31,831 nt of DNA, taken from positions 1 through 31,831 of the IMG/VR virus record IMGVR_UViG_3300048930_000121. The stretch is one strand, 5' to 3'. The position numbers and the translations under genes are program-made. Under the pieces are notes generated by a model. That model did not search any database. It was not told the DNA's origin and worked only from the letters and a program-made list of their open reading frames with translations. Positions 3,625-24,828 of the stretch are shown piece by piece (the first letter of the stretch is position 1; every line of letters begins with the position of its first letter). The stretch is from a virus.

Positions 3625-3938
3625 GGCCTGCGCTCCACCAGCGTCATCACGATCTCGACGCCCTCTTCGTCGCGGTCGATCACGCTCGCCACTTCGAAGA
3701 TGCGGTCGCCGTACTTCAGTCGGTCTTTCGCGTCGATCTGCAGCGGTGCCCGGGCCTTCGCCTCGTGTGTCACCTGTTCATGGCGCTCGGCGTTCATCTC
3801 GATCTCGCGTGCCGTGAGGGGACGAAGGCTGATCCAGATCAGGCCCTGATCGGCCCACGTCTCGATGGGCTGGCCGTGCCCATCACGGGTGACGGTGCGG
3901 CGCTGGAGCGTGACCTTCTTGGACCTTTGGCTGATCAC
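3621..3938 (-). CDS. Head closure / head-tail adaptor, SPP1 gp16-like
   Basis: A 105-residue protein with the phage head-tail joining pattern: ITLQRR-like opening (KKVTLQRRTVTRDGHGQPIETW), LIWISLRPLTARE, then a C-terminal RLKYGDRIFEVASVIDRDEEG. The GDR.F.V motif is characteristic of the Phage_H_T_join family. Such proteins close the portal channel and connect it to the tail. The GTG start overlaps the TGA of the gp6-like connector gene, and its own stop overlaps the next start. Confidence 0.85.
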   Translation of the reverse strand: MISQRSKKVTLQRRTVTRDGHGQPIETWADQGLIWISLRPLTAREIEMNAERHEQVTHEAKARAPLQIDAKDRLKYGDRIFEVASVIDRDEEGVEIVMTLVERRP

Positions 3939-4847: not shown

Positions 4848-6140
4848 TCACGACGATGTCGAAGCGGACTGGGTCAGGAACTTGATCGGACGCGTGCCCG
4901 CGTCGATCAGCTTCCCGTCGTATCGCTGGTAGCCCAGGAAGCCCACCTGGAAGAACTCGGCGTAGCGTTCCACCAGACGAAGCACGGCGAATTGGCCGAC
5001 GCGGCGGACGTGGTATTTGTTCAGACGCCCGAAAAGCACCGTCTTGGCGCTGACCGTGATCACCGAGGCCATGGCTTGGTTGACGTAGAACGGGTTGCCG
5101 AGCAGCTGGTCCGGGGCACCTGCATCGAGGCCGGCATTCGGACCGCCGGCGACAAACAGCGGACGCCCGTAGTTGTCGGTCAACAGACGAATCGCCTTAA
5201 AGATGTTGTCGTGGAACATCCAGCCCACGCCGGGGCCTTCACGGTACGCCGGATCGACCGAGTGCTGCAGGTTGATCAGGTCGGCGTAGCTGATCGTGTA
5301 GCCGCTGGCAGCGGTGTGGCCACTGACAGCGCCGGTCACGATGCCCTGAGGCGCGGTCGAGCCGTTGCCGGTGGTCAGGCCGGGGTTCAGTCTGCGTCCG
5401 ATCCGTTCCGCGGCGGCATTGCGGATGATCTGTTCCACGTTGAACGCGCTGTCATTGATCAGTTGCAGCGAGACGCGGATCGGCCCCGACCCGTACATGT
5501 ACGCGCCGAAGTTCACCGCCGCGAAGTCGGGGTCGTCCGTGGTGGTGGTCTCGGTGTTTTCGCCCACGATCGCGCCTTCGTGGTCGGTGTCGTTCATCGA
5601 CGGATAGGGCAGTGTTTCGCCAGTGGACGTATCGAAGATTGTCGCGGCCTGCAGCACGCCGCTATACGACTTGAGGGCCACTTCCAGCTCTCGCACGAAG
5701 CCCTCGGGCACGGTCGCGCCGCCGGTGCCAGCCGTTCCAGCCGACAGCGCACGGGCCTCGGCTGTGTTCAGCACGGCATCGTACACCAGGCTGTTGCGAA
5801 GTTCGGGCGACAAGTTCCCGCGCAGGTAGGCGTTGAACGCCTTGTCGTCGCTGTTGCGACGCTCGGTCGGGGTGGTGTCATCCCGGCCCGTTTCCCGGCC
5901 AGCCCTGTTCCCGTCCTTCGGCGCGTTGCGAAGCTCGCGCTCGGCTTCGAGCTGCTTCACGTACATGTCGATCTGCGCCTTGGCCTTGTCGCCGGCCGCG
6001 TGACGCTTCTCGAACTCCTGACGCTCTTCGCCGCTCAGGTCGCGGTTTTCGGTCTTGGCCTTGGTCAGGATGACGCCAGCCTGGTCGAGGTCGCGCTTGC
6101 GCTCCTCCAACAGACGATTGATCTCGACTTGGTAGTCCAT
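4848..6140 (-). CDS. Major capsid protein, HK97 fold
   Basis: A 430-residue protein. Residues about 1-75 are charged and coiled-coil-like (EINRLLEERKRDLDQAGVIL), as in the delta scaffolding domain of HK97-type capsids. They are followed by a polar linker and the mature-start region near residues 128-145 (ARALSAGTAGTGGATVPEGF). The body shows P-domain and A-domain features such as VALKSYSGVLQAATIF, a long acidic loop, and a C-terminal ERYAEFFQVGFLGYQRYDGKL. The preceding gene is the matching protease, which would remove the delta domain after assembly. I expect cleavage around residues 110-132, an inference. Confidence 0.93.
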   Translation of the reverse strand: MDYQVEINRLLEERKRDLDQAGVILTKAKTENRDLSGEERQEFEKRHAAGDKAKAQIDMYVKQLEAERELRNAPKDGNRAGRETGRDDTTPTERRNSDDKAFNAYLRGNLSPELRNSLVYDAVLNTAEARALSAGTAGTGGATVPEGFVRELEVALKSYSGVLQAATIFDTSTGETLPYPSMNDTDHEGAIVGENTETTTTDDPDFAAVNFGAYMYGSGPIRVSLQLINDSAFNVEQIIRNAAAERIGRRLNPGLTTGNGSTAPQGIVTGAVSGHTAASGYTISYADLINLQHSVDPAYREGPGVGWMFHDNIFKAIRLLTDNYGRPLFVAGGPNAGLDAGAPDQLLGNPFYVNQAMASVITVSAKTVLFGRLNKYHVRRVGQFAVLRLVERYAEFFQVGFLGYQRYDGKLIDAGTRPIKFLTQSASTSS

Positions 6141-21946: not shown

Positions 21947-22389
21947 TTCGCACCGCCTTCCGCGCGAAACTCGACCAGGACTTCCTTTATCCGTTCGGCG
22001 AGACGCTTGAGGCGTTCGATGTTCGCAAGAGTGTTGGGCAGCTTGCCCATGCTGGCGTAATCTGCGCACTCATCAACCTGGTGAAGCCACAGCGTGTCCG
22101 CGTGCCGCTGAATGCGCCACTCCACCACGTCACAGTTGGGAATGTCGCCCATGCGCAGCACTGCTTCGCCGCGGTCGTTTTCACTCCATTCGTGCTTCAC
22201 TTCGAGGTCGGGAGCGGATTCACCGTCGGCTACAATCGCAACCGGAATGATGTCGCCTACCCACCCACTGTGCCACTTGCGACACTCCTCCTCCGTGTGG
22301 TCAACGTATCGAGACACTGAGGGCGTCTTCAGCTTTGGCTTACACACCCATCCCCTCGCCAGCACTTTGCCTGTAATGACATCGCTCAT
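21943..22389 (-). CDS. Hypothetical protein, 148 residues
   Basis: The ATG at 22389 is preceded by AGGAGAGAG, a strong ribosome binding site. The product is acidic, with SDVITGKVLARGWVCKP, DHTEEECRKWHSGWVGD and a helical C-terminus (LANIERLKRLAERIKEVLVE). It begins the coupled run that ends at integrase. Function unknown. Confidence 0.65.
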   Translation of the reverse strand: MSDVITGKVLARGWVCKPKLKTPSVSRYVDHTEEECRKWHSGWVGDIIPVAIVADGESAPDLEVKHEWSENDRGEAVLRMGDIPNCDVVEWRIQRHADTLWLHQVDECADYASMGKLPNTLANIERLKRLAERIKEVLVEFRAEGGAK

Positions 22390-22400
22390 CGCTCTCTCCT

Positions 22401-22742
22401 TCAGTGTCCGGCGATCTGCTTGTCGATGGTCTTGCGTATCACCGCGTGCACGCTTCCGATCATGTCGATCGGGCACTTGATCCAGCAGCGGAGTCGGAAG
22501 CGGCCGGAGCGTTCGACGACGCCCGCCACCACCACCAGGATGTCGGCCTCGGGCTGTACCCTGACGATCGCCTCGCCGCCGTCCTGGCTTCCCGTCCGCC
22601 GGGTCAGCTCTTCGATCAGTTCATGGCTCGGGTAGACCTCCAAGGGCGGGATCCACGACTGGCGCAGCAGCTCCACGTCCAGCCCGCTCGGGTCCAGCCG
22701 ATGGGCGATGATTCTCAGTGTCCTGGCCAGTCGCTTGAGCAT
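22401..22742 (-). CDS. Hypothetical protein with array-type leader A
   Basis: 113 residues from ATG at 22742. Helical opening (MLKRLARTLRIIAHRL), then beta-rich EAIVRVQPEADILVVVAGVV and a C-terminal helix. A weak GAGAG lies upstream. Its leader holds a 13-unit pentamer array and a GAAA-capped hairpin, as do the leaders of the genes at 23065 and 24250. I recognise no function. Confidence 0.62.
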   Translation of the reverse strand: MLKRLARTLRIIAHRLDPSGLDVELLRQSWIPPLEVYPSHELIEELTRRTGSQDGGEAIVRVQPEADILVVVAGVVERSGRFRLRCWIKCPIDMIGSVHAVIRKTIDKQIAGH

Positions 22743-22766
22743 CTCGGTTCTCTCTTTCGTAAGCCT

Positions 22767-22790
22767 CTCCGCAGCGTTTCCGATGCGGAG
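22767..22790 (-). promoter_or_regulatory. Leader hairpin A (GAAA tetraloop)
   Basis: On the coding strand CTCCGCA pairs with TGCGGAG (7 bp), then a single T/C mismatch, then CG-GAAA-CG. It sits five bases past the pentamer array and 24 bases before the start codon of the 113-residue gene. Hairpin B has the same plan. Confidence 0.6.
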
Positions 22791-22795
22791 GGGAC

Positions 22796-22860
22796 CCTTG
22801 TCTTGCCCAGCCCTGTCGTGCCCAGCCGCGCCGCGCCTTGCTCCGCCGCGCCGGGCCTTG
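22796..22860 (-). repeat. Pentamer array A, (CNNGG)13
   Basis: Thirteen consecutive five-base units on the coding strand: CAAGG, CCCGG, CGCGG, CGGAG, CAAGG, CGCGG, CGCGG, CTGGG, CACGA, CAGGG, CTGGG, CAAGA, CAAGG. Positions 1, 4 and 5 are nearly fixed while 2 and 3 vary. The phase is unbroken. The GG every five bases also fits two-tier G-quadruplex spacing. Confidence 0.8.
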
Positions 22861-22861
22861 C

Positions 22862-23065
22862 TCACTCGTCACTCAGTCCCGATCCGCCCATCTCAGTTCT
22901 CGGCATCAGCGTTAAGCGGATGACCGTCAGCGACGACGGCTTCGGCTTGTCGATCTCCGCCTCGAACGCGCGGCATGCGATCGCAGACCAGCTGACTTTG
23001 GACTTCTTCGACATTCGATCCATGCGAGCCCGCAATGCGTCGGGAACATAGATATTCATTCTCAT
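22862..23065 (-). CDS. CopG/Arc-type ribbon-helix-helix protein
   Basis: 67 residues. RMNIYVPDALRARMDRM followed by SKVSWSAIACRAFEAEI is the ribbon-helix-helix pattern: a short beta strand, helix, turn and helix. Such proteins are dimeric DNA-binding regulators. The ATG at 23065 has GGAGC seven bases upstream; an ATG at 23119 would add 18 residues but would start inside the leader. The C-terminal part is Ser/Gly-rich. Leader B precedes it. Confidence 0.75.
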   Translation of the reverse strand: MRMNIYVPDALRARMDRMSKKSKVSWSAIACRAFEAEIDKPKPSSLTVIRLTLMPRTEMGGSGLSDE

Positions 23066-23083
23066 GGTGTTCGCTCCAAAGCC

Positions 23084-23109
23084 CGCGTGCGTCGTTTCCG
23101 CCACACGCG
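23084..23109 (-). promoter_or_regulatory. Leader hairpin B (GAAA tetraloop)
   Basis: On the coding strand CGCGTGTG pairs with CGCACGCG (8 bp, one G-T), then one G/A mismatch, then CG-GAAA-CG. Located between array B and the ribosome binding site of the ribbon-helix-helix gene. The same order of stem, single mismatch and capped CG pair occurs in hairpin A with different stem bases. Confidence 0.6.
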
Positions 23110-23125
23110 AGCCGTCCATTCGGAC

Positions 23126-23195
23126 CCTTGCCTTGTCACGCCCCGCCCCGCCAAGCCCGGCCTAGCCGCACCAATCCGCGCCAGGCCACGCCTTG
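23126..23195 (-). repeat. Pentamer array B, (CNNGG)14
   Basis: Fourteen units on the coding strand: CAAGG, CGTGG, CCTGG, CGCGG, ATTGG, TGCGG, CTAGG, CCGGG, CTTGG, CGGGG, CGGGG, CGTGA, CAAGG, CAAGG. As in array A it ends CAAGG followed by GTCC. It fills the intergenic space between the RAMP-like gene (stop 23206) and the ribbon-helix-helix gene. Confidence 0.8.
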
Positions 23196-23205
23196 ACATA
23201 TTTCT

Positions 23206-23772
23206 TCACCCGCACACCGCAAACCGCCCGTACCTCGGTCGGTAGTCGCCCAGGCCGATCAGTTGCCCGGCGATGCTGATCGCCTCGTCGAGCTGTCGCT
23301 GGTCGATCACCTTCTTCAGGAAGTTGACCTCGAACTTCAGCTTCCACGTGCGGAAGATCGGCCGGGTTCGCATCACGCGGGAGGTACTCACCTTCACGCT
23401 CCGGCGGTCGGTGAACTTGCCGCTGGCGAACATCGCAGCCAGCTCTTTCGGGCCTTCGTAGATCAGGGGCCACGCCCCATCCACGATGATCGCGCTGGTG
23501 AACTCGCGCCCGAGCCTCGACTTCTTGGCCGCGTCGATCAGCATGCGTTCGAGTGCTTCACCCGGCACAACCACCTGCCCTTCCGCGTTGAGGTACAAGC
23601 CCGCATACCACTCGATCCGGGACATTTCGGCGTAGTCATCCTCGGTCTTCTTCTTCTTCCCGCTGACGCGCTTCAGTTCCTTGGACATCGGGTTGAGCGG
23701 GTCGGCCAGCTGGCCGTTGTGCATCAGGAGCGGTGCCACTCCCTCGATCAGGTATTCGGTCTTCTCGTACAT
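23206..23772 (-). CDS. Conserved phage protein, possibly RAMP/Cas7-like fold
   Basis: 188 residues from ATG at 23772, with GAAGGAG seven bases upstream. It begins EYLIEGVAPLLMHNGQLADP and has VVPGEALERMLIDAAKKSRL at about 68-87, RVMRTRPIF near 132-140, and ends with GLGDYRPRYGRF at 173-184. I recall similar proteins in other phage early regions but no assigned role. The PG-x-x-L segment and the terminal Gly-rich loop resemble RAMP (Cas5/Cas7) proteins; this is inference from pattern, not a match. Upstream gene overlaps it by 137 bases. Confidence 0.65.
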   Translation of the reverse strand: MYEKTEYLIEGVAPLLMHNGQLADPLNPMSKELKRVSGKKKKTEDDYAEMSRIEWYAGLYLNAEGQVVVPGEALERMLIDAAKKSRLGREFTSAIIVDGAWPLIYEGPKELAAMFASGKFTDRRSVKVSTSRVMRTRPIFRTWKLKFEVNFLKKVIDQRQLDEAISIAGQLIGLGDYRPRYGRFAVCG

Positions 23773-24250
23773 CGTCAGACTCCTTCGGGGCCTGGTGCGT
23801 TGCCGTGGGTAGGCCGGGTTTCGCTCGCTCATACGGGATGAGTCGATACCGCGTTCCGACCGAAGCCAGAGCTTGCACGTGTTTGCCCGCGTTGATGACG
23901 TTTCGTTCGTGGAGGGCGCGTTCGTCGGCTGTCAGTTGCGTGACATCGACCTCAAGCTGTCGCCGGTGCTCTCGCACCGCCTGTTTGAGCCGCTGGTGGA
24001 CCATGTTGAACGTGTGAGCGGACGCCTCGGCATCAGTCAGGATGCGGAGCGTTGACAGCTCGGACACGATCACCACCGGACGGCCGCGAATTCGAAGCTG
24101 TTGGACGATCTCGTCGCGCAGCTGGAGTGCTGCTAGCCGGAACTCCGCGCCGGGGCACTTGGCCTGTCGCCATCGTTCGATGACATCGGCCTCGATCACA
24201 CTGCCCTTTTCGAGCCGGTCGAAGTCCACAGGGAACCGAGTCGCGTCCAT
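23636..24250 (-). CDS. Hypothetical early protein with array-type leader C
   Basis: 204 residues from ATG at 24250, with GGAGG six bases before it. The first 150 residues are helical and regular (FRLAALQLRDEIVQQLRIRG, then AHTFNMVHQRLKQAVREHRR, then LTADERALHERNVINAGKHV). The last 45 residues overlap the next gene in another frame and are Arg/Glu/Pro-rich, so the natural end is unsure; a lost upstream stop is possible. Function unknown. It is preceded by array C and a GAAA hairpin. Confidence 0.65.
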   Translation of the reverse strand: MDATRFPVDFDRLEKGSVIEADVIERWRQAKCPGAEFRLAALQLRDEIVQQLRIRGRPVVIVSELSTLRILTDAEASAHTFNMVHQRLKQAVREHRRQLEVDVTQLTADERALHERNVINAGKHVQALASVGTRYRLIPYERAKPGLPTATHQAPKESDDVREDRIPDRGSGTAPDAQRPAGRPAQPDVQGTEARQREEEEDRG

Positions 24251-24270
24251 CACAGACCTCCGTAAGGCCG

Positions 24271-24292
24271 ACGACGATCTTTCAACCGCCGC
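24271..24292 (-). promoter_or_regulatory. Leader hairpin C (GAAA tetraloop)
   Basis: On the coding strand GCGGCGGTT pairs with GATCGTCGT over 9 bp with several G-T pairs, closed by GAAA. It lies between array C and the GGAGG ribosome binding site of the 204-residue gene. It lacks the inner mismatch of hairpins A and B. Confidence 0.5.
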
Positions 24293-24298
24293 CGGCGT

Positions 24299-24363
24299 CC
24301 TTGCCTTGCCTCGCCGCGCCATGCCATGCCGAGCATGGCCTCGCCGCGCCGTGCCCCGCCATG
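24299..24363 (-). repeat. Pentamer array C, (CNNGG)13
   Basis: Thirteen units on the coding strand: CATGG, CGGGG, CACGG, CGCGG, CGAGG, CCATG, CTCGG, CATGG, CATGG, CGCGG, CGAGG, CAAGG, CAAGG. It again ends CAAGG CAAGG. Part of the 308-base gene-free stretch 24251-24558, whose other half holds three hairpins. Confidence 0.8.
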
Positions 24364-24387
24364 CTTCACGAGCCTTCCGGCTCATCC

Positions 24388-24477
24388 CCCAAGTCGCGGG
24401 TTTCCCGCGACTTGGGAGTGCGGGGCCTGCTGACTTGAGGCCAGGCCCCGCGTCGACGGCGGTCGGACCATCCGACC
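24388..24477. other. Structured gene-free region with three hairpins
   Basis: Three inverted repeats in a row: a perfect 13-bp stem with loop TTT (24388-24416), an 8-bp stem CGGGGCCT/AGGCCCCG with a 14-base loop (24421-24450), and GGTCGG-ACCAT-CCGACC (24461-24477), the last flanked by GTCGAC copies. No T-run follows the long stem on either strand, so it is not a standard terminator. No convincing gene covers 24251-24558. A structured RNA, an origin or a processing site are all possible. Confidence 0.55.
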
Positions 24478-24558
24478 AGGCGTCGACCAGCGACAACCAC
24501 ACACCCGCCCCGCCGCCGCACGTTCGCCCTGGAGTCGCTCTCCATGCGGCAACGTGTC

Positions 24559-24828
24559 TCACTCACGCTGCGCTTCATGCGCTGACCTGGACTCGACGGC
24601 GGGGCCGATGGGTGGTTCCACGATCGTTGGAGTACTGGCCGGCAGTTCTTTGAGCCGGATTCCGGGGTGAGCTAGAAGCGTCCGACCAAACGCCTTGTGA
24701 ATGGCGTGGCAGTCACTCGCGTGCCTGCAAGCCGGGACACTTTCGGCCAGCCCCTCGAGCCGCTTGAGGGCTTCGAGAACCGCCCAGACGGCGTTTCCGT
24801 AGGTCAGCAATCGATCCGAGCGCTTCAT
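24559..24828 (-). CDS. Hypothetical protein, 89 residues
   Basis: ATG at 24828 with GAGGAAG immediately upstream. Helical first half (LLTYGNAVWAVLEALKRLEG), then CRHASDCHAIHKAFGRTL with two Cys and several His that might bind metal, and a Pro-rich tail. No family recognised. It starts 24 bases past the tRNA-like element. Confidence 0.6.
   Translation of the reverse strand: MKRSDRLLTYGNAVWAVLEALKRLEGLAESVPACRHASDCHAIHKAFGRTLLAHPGIRLKELPASTPTIVEPPIGPAVESRSAHEAQRE

Follow-up and report, generated by a model that had tools for sequence, protein, structure and literature searches.

Analyzing a viral stretch of 31,831 nucleotides (IMG/VR record IMGVR_UViG_3300048930_000121; hereafter the window), we found a compact locus on the minus strand between 22401 and 24363. 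In minus-strand order, it comprises array C with a hairpin, a vap candidate, vipr, array B with hairpins, a 67-aa gene, array A with a hairpin, and a 113-aa gene. The names follow VIPR, a proposed ancestor of CRISPR that was first reported in 2026 (bioRxiv, April/June; PMC13142463) and whose RNAs are called vrRNAs.

Arrays and genes of the locus

The features are as follows.

24299–24363, minus strand: repeat tract of putative vrRNA C, 13 units (NN = AT GG AC GC GA CA TC AT AT GC GA AA AA)
24267–24296, minus strand: putative vrRNA C tail, a 13-pair hairpin with a GAAA loop (shuffle z −4.5)
23636–24250, minus strand: vap candidate P0004, an ORF of 204 aa whose last ~45 codons (C-terminal) lie within vipr but are read in a different frame
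23206–23772, minus strand: vipr, a RAMP (Cas7/Csm3-like) of 188 aa with a C-terminal GLGDYRPRYGRF G-loop
23126–23195, minus strand: repeat tract of putative vrRNA B, 14 units (NN = AA GT CT GC TT GC TA CG TT GG GG GT AA AA)
23080–23125, minus strand: putative vrRNA B tail, two hairpins, namely a small GUCC-GAAU-GGAC hairpin (23114–23125) and then a long GAAA-capped hairpin (23080–23113; shuffle z −5.4)
22862–23065, minus strand: ORF P0002, 67 aa, ribbon-helix-helix-like by eye, no family match; its leader is putative vrRNA B
22796–22860, minus strand: repeat tract of putative vrRNA A, 13 units (NN = AA CC GC GG AA GC GC TG AC AG TG AA AA)
22764–22793, minus strand: putative vrRNA A tail, a GAAA-capped hairpin with one internal mismatch (shuffle z −2.7)
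22401–22742, minus strand: ORF P0003, 113 aa, no family; its leader is putative vrRNA A

The positions and the unbroken five-base phase that the initial annotation had given for the arrays are exact, on the minus strand. It had also described C, G, and G as fixed, which holds for most units but is slightly overstated: 33 of the 40 units fit CNNGG and 34 fit YNNGG, those departing from CNNGG being CGGAG, CACGA, CAAGA, ATTGG, TGCGG, CGTGA, and CCATG. The gene-side end is CAAGG in all three arrays, as had been noted, and reads CAAGGCAAGG in two of them and CAAGACAAGG in one. A five-unit stretch with at most one mismatch occurred 22 times in the window, against 0.01 expected from dinucleotide shuffles, and the NN pairs differed strongly among the three arrays. 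Array A starts 1 nt past the stop codon of P0002 and array B ~10 nt past that of vipr, so the tract, hairpin, Shine–Dalgarno (SD) sequence, and start codon fill the intergenic gap; the ribosome binding site and gene recorded after each hairpin are indeed there, as an SD-like sequence and an ATG.

Searches of 22300–24700 found neither a sigma-70-like promoter nor a terminator-like site on the minus strand. Just upstream of array C lie two perfect inverted repeats (24388–24416, 13-nt arms and a 3-nt loop; 24420–24451, 10-nt arms and a 12-nt gap), both in the gap where the promoter of a VIPR operon would be expected. A small GAGCC-GGAA-GGCTC hairpin (24369–24383) immediately precedes array C; by eye it resembles part of a hammerhead core, but it lacks the core bases and has no Rfam match. 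No Rfam family matched the region. A tandem-repeat scan of the window revealed no CRISPR-type direct repeats with unique spacers, and none of the neighboring genes tested matched Cas models (Pfam, PADLOC, NCBIfam); the locus has neither the repeat-spacer array nor the adjoining cas genes of a CRISPR-Cas system.

The nearest relative of the terminase (57%) comes from a MAG of Phycisphaerae, a group of planctomycetes, and further along the same strand lie integrase and AlpA-like genes. Together, these genes point to a temperate phage of Phycisphaerae as the likely source.

Vipr, the accessory gene, and their association with arrays

PMC13142463 describes vrRNAs as tracts of 9–16 YNNGG units that end in a structured 3′ tail, and Vipr as a small CRISPR-RAMP protein (~20 kDa) that binds the vrRNA and has an RRM core, a glycine-rich loop, and a thumb domain contacting the guide RNA. 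VIPR loci carry an accessory vap gene, occur mostly in phages and prophages, and are divided there into seven types, Escherichia phage SUSP1 representing type II. The NN pairs are described as reading double-stranded DNA with one base skipped, and the GG and the pyrimidine as protein-scaffold positions.

The window Vipr matched chain 36pp_D ("SUSP1 Vipr protein") best in the PDB (E 4.5e-32; residues 9–186, 178 residues), and a 28-sequence profile of this protein and 27 viral relatives matched SUSP1 Vipr alone (E 5.9e-57). It belongs to PHROG 4652 (E 3.5e-53), as does SUSP1 gp39, and matches 130 phage records. With its AlphaFold2 model (pLDDT 96.8), Foldseek returned chains from type III Csm CRISPR complexes as the best solved matches, Csm3 among those named (probability 1.00), and VIA-align against Csm3/Cas7 gave a Z of 11.1 with an rmsd of 3.6 over 152 residues; the RAMP fold match spans residues 1–188 of the model. 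The glycines and the arginine of the GLGDYRPRYGRF G-loop are conserved among relatives, and all 16 columns invariant in a nine-protein alignment are present. In a FastTree phylogeny, the window Vipr grouped with those of five viral stretches (L013, L020, L032, L075, and L111), with support of 0.82 for the wider clade and low support within it, beside a clade containing SUSP1, LESphi2, and actinophages.

Homologs of the vap candidate adjoin vipr in the same five stretches, among those listed. P0004 itself matched no family directly, PHROG 5926 included, and profile-profile comparison gave its family a distant match to SUSP1 Vap1 (probability 88.6, E 2.7e-6, 8% identity). The P0004 model points to a small helix-strand domain with long helices after it, and Foldseek found no significant solved match for it. 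The overlap with vipr covers ~137 nt (23636–23772), the vap ORF extending ~40 residues past the point where its relatives stop; either a frameshift or a genuine overlap could account for this extension.

The array pattern is common in IMG/VR: selection by array DNA only (seven perfect units) gave at least 120 stretches. Vipr was detected in them with an HMM built from nine Viprs. Among the 120 array-selected stretches listed, 83 encode a Vipr, compared with 0 of 61 terminase-selected stretches; many of the 37 without one are short or cut. The array strand was the vipr strand for 296 of 306 arrays in the Vipr loci among the stretches listed. Arrays opposite in strand to the nearest Vipr gene, contrary to this rule, were seen in L045 and L107. 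Selection by protein first gave a Vipr in 10 of 397 Phycisphaerae genomes, at 11 places, 10 of which have an array. It is Vipr that accompanies the arrays everywhere.

Hairpin tails and comparison with published systems

The GAAA-loop hairpin reported after each array is present, with full stems at 22764–22793, 23080–23113, and 24267–24296. GNRA-capped stems of at least 8 pairs lie downstream of all three window arrays and upstream of none (0.00 expected). These tails are similar in shape, and their sequence is not invariable as it is in SUSP1. When stems A and B were aligned on the loop, most pairs differed, with both sides changed; this is consistent with the compensatory change proposed initially, although so few copies (two or three) from a single genome do not amount to a statistical test. 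A stem was likewise kept while its sequence changed between copies in another viral stretch (L076).

The annotation had suggested looking for array–hairpin pairing in related genomes. In Phycisphaerae loci other than this one, 3 of 18 arrays had a GNRA hairpin after them, where 0.10 were expected; in loci outside Phycisphaerae the figure was 4 of 123, with 0.52 expected. The suggestion is thus borne out in part, the GNRA tail being one of several tail types. Over all Vipr-bearing loci, stable hairpins (z < −2) were found after 28% and before 17% of arrays, a nonsignificant difference (p 0.43), so the hairpin tail is not universal.

In five other viral stretches, tRNA-like minihelices consisting of an acceptor-like stem and a GGTTCGANTCC T-arm stand after vrRNA arrays: L131 (Mycobacterium phage LittleE; arrays at 3678–3737, 3803–3872, and 5248–5332), L130 (2891–2960), L009 (3709–3763), L111 (three arrays), and L027 (two arrays). 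These minihelices suggest that RNase P or RNase Z may process the 3′ side of the vrRNA. They were not called as tRNAs by ARAGORN (L130 and L131) or Rfam (L131), and the main text of PMC13142463 does not mention such elements after vrRNAs.

Among published systems, that of SUSP1 (NC_028808 gp38–gp39, PDB 36pp) is also phage-borne, encodes a homologous Vipr (35% identity, PHROG 4652) adjoined by a small accessory gene, and has YNNGG tracts with 3′ tails flanking its genes, with one vrRNA lying upstream of them and the rest downstream; the same array scan recovered YNNGG arrays on either side of its vipr. The differences are that the pyrimidine is mostly C in the window whereas it is T in SUSP1, that the window tails are hairpins with a GAAA loop whose stems differ in sequence whereas the SUSP1 tail is a near-constant pseudoknot, that the vap candidate precedes vipr and is a distant relative of Vap1 whereas SUSP1 vap follows vipr, and that the window vrRNAs lie in leaders of protein genes. 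Pseudomonas phage LESphi2 (OQ594955) shares C-type YNNGG tracts and a Vipr in PHROG 4652, and after each of its tracts come a small hairpin and then another hairpin, as in tail B; unlike those of the window, its three vrRNAs form a single array upstream of vipr, and its vap (PHROG 5926) follows vipr. Csm3/Cas7 of type III, class 1 CRISPR shares the RAMP fold (Z ~11) and the C-terminal G-loop with the window Vipr. In contrast to such systems, the locus has a single small RAMP, lacks a CRISPR array and further cas genes, and has a putative guide formed by a pentanucleotide tract with non-contiguous reading.

The tracts, at 13, 14, and 13 units, are within the published range of 9–16, and they likewise conserve GGY while NN varies. 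Because the arrays, Vipr, and accessory gene fit the published VIPR, the locus is a further member of a kind already known. We consider it very likely that it is the VIPR system of a temperate-type tailed phage with a probable Phycisphaerae host. The regulatory RNA that the initial annotation had put forward as one option was the right guess, array and hairpin probably making one RNA of repeat tract and 3′ tail, and the combination for which it had no name is the one named VIPR in PMC13142463. What is unusual here is that the vrRNAs occupy the 5′ leaders of operon genes, that the tails have the same shape but different sequences, and that vap lies 5′ of vipr.

Guide targets, alternative readings, and meaning

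In the proposed mechanism, for which the reading code and the repression are taken over from PMC13142463 and not from the window, minus-strand transcripts would carry three vrRNAs, each of 13–14 YNNGG units and a hairpin tail, presumably trimmed from the gene leaders. Vipr, whose gene lies between arrays C and B, would coat the tract, presumably with one subunit per pentanucleotide, gripping the GGY positions and leaving the NN pairs free. These pairs would match double-stranded DNA in which the same dinucleotides recur with a single base skipped between them, and the Vipr–guide complex would keep a competing phage, or another mobile element, from being transcribed, with the vap protein, encoded beside vipr, assisting.

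We searched for such targets. In IMG/VR, no exact match to an 11-unit one-base-skip pattern was found for A, B, or C, nor any to the nine-unit patterns of A and B. The nine-unit pattern of guide C matched two homologous contigs of metagenome 3300035070 in a tape-measure-like gene (L229, 12891–12916; L230, 244–269; minus strand), units 2–10 matching exactly in codon phase. Counting all units, 22 of 26 letters agreed, and outside the pattern 4 of 8 did, the latter being about the chance level, and we do not regard this weak candidate as convincing. In the 397 Phycisphaerae genomes, allowing up to three mismatches gave matches in 22–24 genomes per guide, almost all of them three-mismatch matches; those of guide C fall repeatedly in the gene for ribosomal protein L5, recognized by eye in the translations, and the conservation of this sequence inflates the count. 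The window itself contains no target. Overall, there was no convincing target in IMG/VR or the 397 Phycisphaerae genomes. Missing targets are expected if the host and its competitors are unsampled, though their absence leaves the biological role of the locus an inferred one.

The initial annotation had taken the arrays to serve three downstream genes. Such regulation is not required by the guide reading, one of these genes being the vap candidate and vipr lying between the arrays. Nevertheless, VIPR-derived arrays might act chiefly in cis and not as guides, with Vipr on the nascent leader controlling, by autoregulation, the translation or stability of vap, P0002, and P0003, as would suit both the lack of a target and the position of each array between the previous stop codon and the next SD and ATG. 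By a loose criterion under which some ORFs arise by chance, 114 of 306 arrays are placed like leaders, and this placement recurs clearly, directly before vipr or its neighbor, in L020, L075, L093, L112, and L114. However, the arrays are not leaders in many VIPR loci (SUSP1, L117, L122, and L131), and NN pairs that vary so highly among three arrays would be needless in a pure cis element; we consider a chiefly cis role unlikely. Decay of the locus into an inactive state, its guides having no present target, appears less probable still. The target searches, the six units departing from YNNGG, and the extended, overlapping vap C-terminus would accord with decay, but Vipr is intact, with all its invariant columns and a confident fold, the working SUSP1 arrays show similar unit defects, and target absence is expected with an unsampled host.

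Two-tier G-quadruplexes from the GG spacing had also been suggested; in these leaders they would gate translation. As far as the sequence goes, a GG recurring at five-base intervals would permit two tiers, but this leaves the fixed pyrimidine, the phase, the hypervariable NN, the 3′ tail, and the association with Vipr unexplained, and in the known guide code GG and the pyrimidine are scaffold positions and NN the reading positions (PMC13142463); we regard this reading as highly improbable. Least credible of all are iterons in double-stranded DNA or a recombination module (e.g., a replication or packaging site), which short tandem repeats in intergenic phage DNA might recall, since three of five positions are conserved, orientation tracks vipr (296/306), several separated copies occur per genome with RNA-like hairpin tails following them, and the units that had been offered as possible protein-binding iterons are better read as the guide-RNA code (PMC13142463).

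Within the VIPR reading, the most interesting feature of the locus is that its guides are embedded in gene leaders. It is conceivable, if rather doubtful, that the leader vrRNAs are doubly used, Vipr binding or excision setting the output of vap and the two small genes in a form of autoregulation. This would couple guide supply to protein supply, a coupling not described in the main text of PMC13142463.

The locus extends VIPR to a phage of probable Phycisphaerae hosts, and it does so by an independent route, with the array found first and the protein second. As a compact three-guide system whose tails vary in sequence but not in shape, it should be useful for learning what Vipr needs of the tail. 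That arrays are repeatedly placed in leaders hints that guides may be excised from messenger RNAs or read inside them.
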